DNA of 64,000 nt, from contig JAJSLM010000004.1 in assembly GCA_026127925.1 (NCBI GenBank), positions 62,001 through 126,000 of the forward strand, written 5' to 3'. Below are positions 56,924 to 59,248 of this stretch, piece after piece (the stretch's first letter is position 1; every line of letters starts with the position of its first letter). This DNA is from Thermoplasmatales archaeon (GTDB taxonomy: Archaea; Thermoplasmatota; Thermoplasmata; Thermoplasmatales; Thermoplasmataceae). The position numbers and the translations under genes were made by a program. Under the pieces are notes generated by a model, which was not told the DNA's origin, made no database searches, and saw only the letters and a program-made list of their open reading frames with translations.

Positions 56924-57445
56924 TCACCTTACTAAGTTTATATTGAATTTTGACACCATGAACTCTGTGGCTTCTTCCGGGGTAATCCTGATCCTTCTGG
57001 GAACATGCCTGGACTGCACTCTTCTCCTCTGAAGCCTGTAACCTCCGCGCCTTTTGAGCACCACAGAGACATCAAAGCCGAATATGCCGATGTCAGGATC
57101 ATATTTCATCTTCTCCATTTCTGTGTAATCCGGGACGCCGAAGTGAGCGTTTCCCTGCCTATCAAAAGAGTAAGCAGGAATTTTGCGATCCCTCGCAAAC
57201 AGGGCCCTGTTTACGAAGTCTTCAGCTTCCTGTCTTCTCAGGGTCACCTTTTTGCCGATTTCCAATCCTTTTCGTATGTTGAAATCCCTCAGTGTCTTCT
57301 TGGCATGCGTAGTGACCGGCTTATGATTTGTAAGCATCTCGAGAACTTTGTCTGCCCGAGCCAGCCGTTCGCCAGCTTGGCCAACACCGATATTCACGAC
57401 TACCTTGTCAATGACTATATCGCCCATTGGGTTCTTTTCAGTCAT
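56924..57445 (-). CDS. Ribosomal protein L5 (uL5)
   Basis: A 173-residue L5 that anchors 5S rRNA, with DKVVVNIGVGQAGERL near the N-terminus and DIGIFGFDVSVVLKRRGGYRLQRRR near 125. Overlaps S4e by 4 bases. Confidence 0.95.
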   Translation of the reverse strand: MTEKNPMGDIVIDKVVVNIGVGQAGERLARADKVLEMLTNHKPVTTHAKKTLRDFNIRKGLEIGKKVTLRRQEAEDFVNRALFARDRKIPAYSFDRQGNAHFGVPDYTEMEKMKYDPDIGIFGFDVSVVLKRRGGYRLQRRRVQSRHVPRRIRITPEEATEFMVSKFNINLVR

Positions 57446-58152
57446 GCCACATCACCTTCCGTCACCGGGAAACTGTACTTTGGATTTCCAACGACGAAAA
57501 CATTTTCCGCCGTTGTGGAGAAATTTTCCTCGAAATGAATCAGGTTGCTTGACGAGGATTTCTTTACTTCTATGCTTTTTATAGTTACAAATTTCCCAAC
57601 ATGGTTGCCTCCGACAAGAAAGGCCTTACTTCCAGTTTGCATCTTCAGAACATGCTCTATCTTCTTCTCCGGAACGGATAATATTACGACATCACCTGTA
57701 GAGATATTTTTATCATCTGAAAGCAGCGTTTCTCCATCATGGAAGACAATCTGGGTTTTACCGCCCTTTATCGTTACTTTATTCATGACCTTTAGAGGCT
57801 TTAATTTCTTCGCCTCCTCGTTTTCCTTTCTCAGGATCAGTTTGCCGCGCTCATCCAACAGAACTCTGTAAGAAAACCCAAGTGGAGTTATTGTGATGAC
57901 ATCCATCAGGCCGATTCCAACTCTCCTCTTTTTTACGGCTTTGCCGTCAACGAGTACCGATCTGCTGTTTAGTATCCTCGAGATTTCCCTTTCCTTGTCT
58001 CCAAATTTAAGATAGTCCCTCAGGGCTATAAGGATAGGCATGGAATTCTCCCTGCTGTGTTTTCCTGGCAATGACGTAGGCGCCCAGAAGTACTTCTTCC
58101 TAGGCAGCTTCAAGGATCTCGACGCATCCAGTCTCTTAGTCTTGTTTATCAA
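57442..58152 (-). CDS. Ribosomal protein S4e (eS4)
   Basis: A 236-residue S4e beginning MINKTKRLDASRSLKLPRKK from a TTG start at 58150-58152. An S4 RNA-binding domain, then KOW-like domain. The same frame stays open for 210 bases upstream through the L24 tail, but homologues start at KTKRLDA-like positions, so the longer 306-residue reading is rejected. Overlaps L24 by 17 bases. Confidence 0.92.
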   Translation of the reverse strand: MINKTKRLDASRSLKLPRKKYFWAPTSLPGKHSRENSMPILIALRDYLKFGDKEREISRILNSRSVLVDGKAVKKRRVGIGLMDVITITPLGFSYRVLLDERGKLILRKENEEAKKLKPLKVMNKVTIKGGKTQIVFHDGETLLSDDKNISTGDVVILSVPEKKIEHVLKMQTGSKAFLVGGNHVGKFVTIKSIEVKKSSSSNLIHFEENFSTTAENVFVVGNPKYSFPVTEGDVA

Positions 58153-58840
58153 TTTTCTTTCGCCCCCCTTTTTTTGGTGCTGATTCTTCAGCTTTATCAG
58201 AATCTTTTGCCGATTCCGGCTTCTTTCTTGATCTGGACGTGGATTTCTTGGCAGCCTTCTTCCCTTCAATATCAGAGGTATCCTTATCTGAAGAATCTTC
58301 TTCTGCTTCTTCGTCTGGTAGGGATAATTCTTCCTTTTCCGCCAGCTCACCCTCCGATTCATTTGGTTCGGTAGTTGTCTCGTTCGCTTCAGGATTCTCT
58401 GGCTCTGATGGCTCCGTGTCTACATTTCCCAATACAGGTGGTTCCTGCACGGTCTCGCCCGTCTCCGGTAGTTCTGCGGGTTTTTCCTCCGGTTCAGGTG
58501 CAAGTTCCTCAGGCGTTGGTTCTGTGATCGTGAAATTCTTCATCTGAGCAACTCTTCTGATCCGATCCAAACGTTCCTGCCTGGTAAAGTCTATCTTGGT
58601 TATGACGAGTTTTTGGGGCTTCATCTTCCTCTCTTTCTGTTTTCCGTCGGCCTTTGTTGAGGTGACACCCTCAACTGAGATGAGACCATTCGAATGATCG
58701 ACATTTATAACCTTCCCACCTTCTCCCTTCAATTTTCCAGACTTGACCTTAACTATGTCGCCTTTGCAAATTGGGATGGAGCGTATATCGTACTTCTTCC
58801 TGAGTTCCTTGCTAACTGCAACATCAACGTAATTCATCAT
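58136..58840 (-). CDS. Ribosomal protein L24 (uL24) with long acidic-then-basic C-terminal tail
   Basis: A 234-residue L24. The first 105 or so residues are a normal archaeal L24 (KOW motif ICKGDIVKVKSGKLKGEGGKV). A tail of about 125 residues follows: a Pro/Glu/Asp-rich acidic stretch, then a Lys/Ser/Arg-rich end KKSTSRSRKKPES...GGRKK. Archaeal L24 is usually near 120 residues. The tail is low complexity and likely disordered. GGTGATC before ATG 58840 is a good ribosome site; a GTG at 58849 is the alternative start. Confidence 0.92.
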   Translation of the reverse strand: MMNYVDVAVSKELRKKYDIRSIPICKGDIVKVKSGKLKGEGGKVINVDHSNGLISVEGVTSTKADGKQKERKMKPQKLVITKIDFTRQERLDRIRRVAQMKNFTITEPTPEELAPEPEEKPAELPETGETVQEPPVLGNVDTEPSEPENPEANETTTEPNESEGELAEKEELSLPDEEAEEDSSDKDTSDIEGKKAAKKSTSRSRKKPESAKDSDKAEESAPKKGGRKKIDKQD

Positions 58841-58849
58841 TTTGATCAC

Positions 58850-59248
58850 CTAAACTATAGCCGAGGCTATGGCAGCTATCCTTGGCCATCTCTCTGCGGC
58901 CTCCTTTGCTACTGGCCCCTTTATTTCAGAGCCGCGAACCTCACCGTCTGGAGTTACAAGAACTGCAGCGTTCTCTTCGAACTCCACCATTGAACCGTCA
59001 GGTCGCCTGTAAGGGCGTCTTTGCCTTATCACTACAGCATAAACAACCTTGCTCCTCATCTCAGGAGTGCCCTTTTTTACGCTTGCCATGAACATATCTC
59101 CAACGCCAGCCGCAGGGATTCTTCTAGCAACACCGTGGTAAGCCTTTACGCCAATAAGACTCACACTCTTGGCACCGCTGTTGTCAGCGCACTGCATCAC
59201 CGCTCCGAGCGGGAGTCCTCTCTGTTGTCTGCCAGCAATACCTTTCAT
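58850..59248 (-). CDS. Ribosomal protein L14 (uL14)
   Basis: A 132-residue L14: MQCADNSGAKSVSLIGVKAYHG near 18, GDMFMASVKKGTPEMR near 47, and VVIRQRRPYRRPDGS. Overlaps S17 by 4 bases. Confidence 0.96.
   Translation of the reverse strand: MKGIAGRQQRGLPLGAVMQCADNSGAKSVSLIGVKAYHGVARRIPAAGVGDMFMASVKKGTPEMRSKVVYAVVIRQRRPYRRPDGSMVEFEENAAVLVTPDGEVRGSEIKGPVAKEAAERWPRIAAIASAIV

Follow-up and report, generated by a model that had tools for sequence, protein, structure and literature searches.

An acidic tail with a basic end on ribosomal protein uL24 of a Thermoplasmatales archaeon, and its possible role at the tunnel exit

Introduction

The uL24 (L24) gene of a Thermoplasmatales archaeon runs far beyond the conserved core of its product, which raises the questions of whether this extension is a genuine part of the protein, how far it is special to the organism, and what it might do on the ribosome. 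In eukaryotes uL24 (RPL26) lies close to the SEC61 translocon with its C terminus by the tunnel exit, as described in the accessible text of PMC10937380, so that the initial annotation of the locus, made from the sequence alone, was well founded in placing the tail at the exit site. Here we describe the gene and its tail, follow the tail through the order, class and phylum, and weigh the explanations for it.

Results

The uL24 gene and its core

The window is the whole stretch of DNA that was analysed, 64,000 nucleotides long (GenBank assembly GCA_026127925.1, contig JAJSLM010000004.1, positions 62,001 to 126,000), and all coordinates refer to it. The locus is a standard archaeal S10/spc operon on the minus strand, with uL24 between uL14 and S4e:

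58850..59248, minus strand: uL14, same operon, directly upstream of uL24 (NCBIfam PRK08571, 207 bits)
58136-58849, minus strand: uL24 open reading frame, 237 aa counted from GTG
58556..58840, minus strand: KOW-domain core of uL24, likely ATG start through residue 98 (TIGR01080, Pfam Ribosomal_L26 and KOW, AlphaFold)

The GTG from which residues are counted sits inside a Shine-Dalgarno-like AGGTGAT directly after the L14 stop, and the true start is therefore likely to be an ATG at 58840 or 58837, giving a protein of 233-234 aa. The core passes the curated cut-off of TIGR01080 (rplX_A_E; 68.9 bits against 47.65, residues 10-99) and is matched by Pfam KOW (23.6 bits against 22.3) and Ribosomal_L26, and the genome carries a single copy of the gene. 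Archaeal uL24 usually begins with a basic N-terminal arm of about 22 residues; the window protein has none, and the profile match to uL24s of this type begins at about position 24 of TIGR01080. This arm is typical but not required by the TIGR01080 cut-off and its lack is hence not disqualifying; by every other criterion tested, the protein is an archaeal uL24. The arm motif is absent from all 76 uL24s of family f1, to which the window belongs, and family f4 (0/62 and 0/14), and is present in 18/18 of f2, 5/5 of f3 and all of f5 and f6. Since f1 and f4 form one group with a support of 100 on the tree of the order, the arm was apparently lost once, in f1 and f4 together. Elsewhere, the uL24 matches of families f42 and f51 begin at profile position 23-24, a hint of further arm losses.

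Anatomy of the tail

Beyond the core, residues 99-237 form a tail of 139 aa with a net charge of -19, comprising the following parts:

58265..58555, minus strand: acidic, Pro/Glu-rich part, residues 99-195 (97 residues), including the proximal segment (from the sequence)
58508..58555, minus strand: proximal segment RVAQMKNFTITEPTPE, common to the tails of the family (column counts in 62 f1 and 14 f4 tails)
58139..58264, minus strand: basic, Lys/Ser/Arg-rich end, residues 196-237 (42 residues; from the sequence, no Pfam match)

The initial annotation had already recognised an acidic, Pro/Glu-rich start turning into a Lys/Ser/Arg-rich stretch with a GGRKK end, and counting from the sequence bears this out; its estimate of about 125 residues fell slightly short of the true length, and the tail, said to double the protein, in fact more than doubles it. 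The C-terminal end reads PKKGGRKKIDKQD. We regard this anatomy as virtually certain, and it places the tail among the acidic tails of the order (at least 30 residues after the core, net acidic). The proximal segment follows a pattern resembling (I/L)AA.(K/R)N(I/L)...E(E/P)PEP, represented in the window by RVAQMKNFTITEPTPEEL, which is looser at the first positions; within the first 22 residues of the 62 f1 and 14 f4 tails, the motifs EPEP, EPTP, EEPE and EEPP gave 59 matches against a shuffle mean of 5.9.

An AlphaFold model built on an alignment of 55 uL24s (window and sampled loci) gave pLDDT values of 87-98 for the core and 48-62 for the tail, which was modelled without secondary structure, suggesting that the tail is probably disordered. 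The window uL24 contained no tandem repeats, the window tail no Pfam domain, SAP included, at an E-value of 0.1, and the window genome no second copy of the basic segment that would point to an origin from another gene.

Selection on the tail in close relatives

One doubt raised by the initial annotation was a frameshift error in the assembly joining L24 to an unrelated frame. An A7G6 homopolymer near the end of L24, at which a single missing base would join L24 and S4e into one frame, gives this doubt some substance. The sister genome G306, of the same genus, answers it: its L24 is 83% identical, shares the reading frame and the homopolymer, and carries a tail of 129 aa in frame, differing in length from the window tail by ten whole codons. 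Between the two genomes, dN/dS was 0.04 for the core and 0.21 for the tail (0.16 for the acidic part, 0.35 for the basic part). Of 16 close pairs drawn from f1, f2 and f4, three were saturated; the other 13 gave tail dN/dS values between 0.07 and 0.54, all below 1 and all but one no higher than 0.27. As a mark of purifying selection, these values point to a tail that is translated and constrained, though less so than the core. The acidic part also agrees in position and proximal sequence with tails throughout the family. Given the in-frame tail of G306 and the dN/dS values we consider an assembly error ruled out, its residual probability being negligible.

Tails across the order

The order sample comprised every uL24 found, in 102 genomes, of which 101 contained the gene through to its end (in G336 a contig end cuts it). 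Tails of at least 32 residues were present in 62/62 of f1, 18/18 of f2, 5/5 of f3 and 14/14 of f4, that is in 99 of the 101; the exceptions were f5 (15 aa) and f6 (8 aa). The description of the tail as not known from standard archaeal L24 therefore cannot stand: the length comparison across relatives that the initial annotation had itself proposed finds similar tails to be common. Net charges ranged from -8 to -41 in f1, -12 to -32 in f2 and -10 to -18 in f4; the tails of f3 are short and hardly charged (only -2 to -12). Beyond the first 16 residues or so, tail sequence is poorly conserved. The acidic-tailed uL24s of f1, f2, f3 and f4 share with the window the core, the place in the operon and the position of the disordered tail, and those of f1 and f4 in addition the proximal segment and an end overlapping S4e. 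They differ in that, outside the window genus, tails measure 32-96 residues and have no basic segment. The window tail is the longest of the order (139), followed by that of G306 (129) and then one of 96, and the basic segment occurs in the window and G306 only; in G306, the last 30 tail residues carry a charge of only about +1 (counted by eye). Thus it is the length of the tail and the added basic end that are special to the window, the acidic tail itself being universal in its near relatives.

On a tree of the order built from 16 genes, f1, f3 and f4 form one group and f2 and f5 another. Because of this branching, the tail would either go back to the ancestor of f1-f5, with shortening in f5, or have been gained twice. 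A comparison of 21 operons (21 genes, of which 19 were comparable; S4e and S14, absent from most rows, were left out of the count) revealed that only L24 in the order overhangs the shared end by more than 15 residues. A general acidification of ribosomal proteins is ruled out by this restriction of long overhangs to L24 among the 19 comparable genes.

The junction with S4e

The last codons of the tail overlap the next gene:

57442..58152, minus strand: S4e coding sequence, TTG start, overlapping the L24 stop by 17 nt, 236 aa (NCBIfam PRK04313, 241 bits)
58163-58175, minus strand: A7G6 run in the basic segment, encoding KKGG (from the sequence; identical in G306)

In both genomes of the window genus, the S4e start is most likely the TTG at 58150-58152, whereas most of the order uses ATG. 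The G-run of A7G6 may be the S4e ribosome-binding site, since five of its Gs would pair with the CCUCC of a standard 16S end with one G-U; it lies 10 nt before the TTG, so that part of the GGRKK end would double as the S4e initiation region. Overlap of the S4e start with the L24 stop is found in most of the order, and a Shine-Dalgarno-like motif lies in the last tail codons of 54/62 f1, 18/18 f2 and 14/14 f4 genes, counts that carry no background control and in which Glu codons easily produce GGAGG. In f3 the script found the S4e start in only 1/5.

The initial annotation also remarked that the DNA of the tail keeps the S4e frame open for 210 bases. This is correct as an observation (210 bases before the S4e start; 93 codons counted back from the L24 stop), and could mean that the frame is used, either as an N-terminal extension of S4e of up to 70 residues or through slippage at A7G6, which is conceivable because the two genes would be fused in frame by a one-base deletion there. 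The conservation of A7G6 in G306 speaks for such use, as does the low rate at which the two genomes differ synonymously in the basic segment (3/34) compared with the acidic part (21/60; P = 0.006, uncorrected). The frame itself is no special feature. An open S4e frame of at least 70 codons arose in 43% of synonymous-codon shuffles (P about 0.43) and in 5.5% of codon-order shuffles, and its openness is a by-product of purine-rich codons; in G306 it meets a stop after 52 codons, the PRK04313 match to S4e begins only at residue 73 of the reading frame, and in the order stop and start usually overlap at this junction. An S4e extension is thus unneeded to explain the open frame, and use of the frame in either form is very improbable. 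Synonymous changes in the basic segment are not clearly fewer than in the core (22/89, P = 0.08), so that their scarcity in 58139-58264 is only a hint of additional constraint at the nucleic-acid level. RNA structure predicted at the junction (z = -2.0, 6/200 shuffles as good) was too weak to use.

Tails in the class and phylum

Outside the order, the stretch after the core measures 4-11 residues in most families sampled in the class, 22 in f29 and 29-74 in f15, and many families lack any tail. Across the phylum sample, 152/203 complete uL24s carry tails of at least 30 residues, a figure that does not estimate their frequency because the sample was partly chosen for long open frames. Removed before counting were L032 (same contig as L033), L110-L114 and L129 (repeats; L129 is from the genome of L058), and L130, L187, L201 and L226, whose genes were cut by the end of the stretch or contig.

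An acidic tail with a basic end is also found in family f48. By a test requiring a tail of at least 60 residues whose last 30 carry a net charge of +3 or more, 12 of 14 sampled f48 tails are acidic then basic, and one of the 62 f1 tails passes, by our count that of the window. The f48 uL24s resemble that of the window in having a long tail that passes from acidic to basic, but are distant in the tree, retain the N-terminal arm and have a different proximal segment, GLSEE.KKEIE.EA. In all five uL24s of family f38 (L189, L190, L215, L216 and L217), an acidic linker leads, as in the window, to an end module, which here is a C-terminal Pfam SAP domain (49, 53, 96, 59 and 54 bits against a cut-off of 23.9; duplicated in L215). 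The window tail has no such domain. SAP domains are known nucleic-acid binders.

Families f37, f48, f60 and f64 (L175-L188, L218-L234) have tails of up to 152 residues with a shared proximal G-L-(S/P)-E-E-x-K-x-E-I-E, and by this sequence may form a tail family of their own, the second in the phylum. A tree of the phylum, built from few genes (S4e in only 8/79 tips) and rooted at the midpoint, gave a rough count of 8 changes of tail state and placed f6 apart from its place in the better tree of the order.

The exit site and known uL24 tails

The initial annotation put the tail close to where SecY docks. A link to SecY found no support in the charges of its cytoplasmic loops, which showed no difference between tailed and untailed lineages across the 20 of 21 operons in which SecY was found (fragmentary in f5), a small and phylogenetically confounded comparison. 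A known counterpart is human RPL26, whose tail belongs to the same protein and the same end, and is flexible, lysine-bearing and near the translocon; on the human 60S subunit, UFM1 is positioned by its ligase over the C-terminal end of RPL26, whose final residues are not seen (accessible text of PMC10937380). The human tail differs from that of the window in extending only about 21 residues beyond the core (the match ends at 124 of 145) and in not being acidic then basic, and it is UFMylated at Lys132 and Lys134; UFM1, as stated in the part of PMC10183829 consulted, is observed only in eukaryotes. An E-rich C-terminal extension, acidic like the window tail, has been described for eL24 of some Thermoplasmata and Halobacteria (excerpts of PMC8481954); eL24 (L24e, PF01246) is a different protein from uL24 despite the similar name.

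Among the 60 PDB sequences listed, no solved uL24 has a tail of comparable length: the chains taken to be archaeal measure 118-128 residues, and the others fewer than 160 except one of 213. A literature search for uL24 tails in Thermoplasmata, to which subscription journals were mostly inaccessible, found nothing.

Discussion

Our preferred reading takes the tail for an electrostatic tether, disordered and sited at the tunnel exit, that goes far back in the order and acquired a basic hook in the window genus. We give this reading as a whole a probability of about 0.5, and the tether role taken by itself is tentative, at or a little under even odds. An acidic tail, of 32-96 residues outside the window genus, would have arisen early in the order; in the window genus it would have been lengthened to 129-139 residues, with the Lys/Ser/Arg-rich end added just before the conserved last residues that overlap the S4e start. 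The tail would project from the tunnel-exit face; its acidic part could hold the arm outstretched and away from the rRNA, and could attract basic partners such as targeting factors, chaperones or nascent chains. A second grip on nucleic acid, perhaps a neighbouring rRNA surface or mRNA, might come from the basic end, as from the basic or SAP ends of other families; contact of the basic end with RNA is possible. The last tail codons would serve in addition as the translation-initiation region of S4e. Against the tether count the SecY loops, which show no matching change of charge, the lack of a Pfam domain in the window tail, the many tailless families of the class, the weak charge of the f3 tails (net -2 to -12) and the restriction of the basic segment to two genomes.

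Two other explanations are serious rivals. The tail could be a weakly constrained, low-complexity expansion tolerated on the surface, selected only for charge, solubility and an S4e ribosome-binding site at its 3' end, as might be expected from its range of lengths within the order (32 to 139), its fast divergence with whole-codon indels, the poor conservation past the proximal residues and the Shine-Dalgarno-like motifs before S4e in f1, f2 and f4. These motifs lose weight for want of a background control, and weak constraint sits uneasily with dN/dS values below 1 in every computable pair, a proximal segment conserved across f1 and f4, and the retention of the tail in 99 of 101 complete uL24s; we therefore find this explanation rather doubtful. 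Alternatively, the acidic tail could fold onto the basic, RNA-binding core of free uL24 and keep it soluble and selective until it meets 23S rRNA, with no role on the finished ribosome. Strongly acidic tails on a basic rRNA-binding protein (net -8 to -41 in f1, f2 and f4) fit this proposal, and uL24 is an early-assembly protein in bacteria. It leaves unexplained the basic ends of the window genus and f48 and the SAP ends of f38, the other basic ribosomal proteins of the operon do without such tails, and loss of the basic N-terminal arm in f1 and f4 should have reduced the need for a shield. A role confined to assembly is accordingly unlikely.

Beyond the tether reading of the window tail, it is conceivable, if improbable at present, that uL24 repeatedly became an exit arm in this phylum, in which an acidic disordered linker carries a grip on nucleic acid, basic in the window genus and f48 and made of one or two SAP domains in f38, that would hold mRNA, a neighbouring ribosome or DNA near the exit and the membrane. 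The literature search found no description of translation organised by such a uL24 arm in archaea.

Nascent chains emerge from the ribosome beside uL24, whose C-terminal tail in eukaryotes bears the UFM1 mark by which ribosomes are released from the translocon. The phylum offers a natural series, from no tail through acidic tails to acidic tails with a basic end or a SAP domain, for asking what a tail at the exit site does. If the tails should prove to be mere bristles, they would still be a useful caution for the reading of ribosomal protein extensions.
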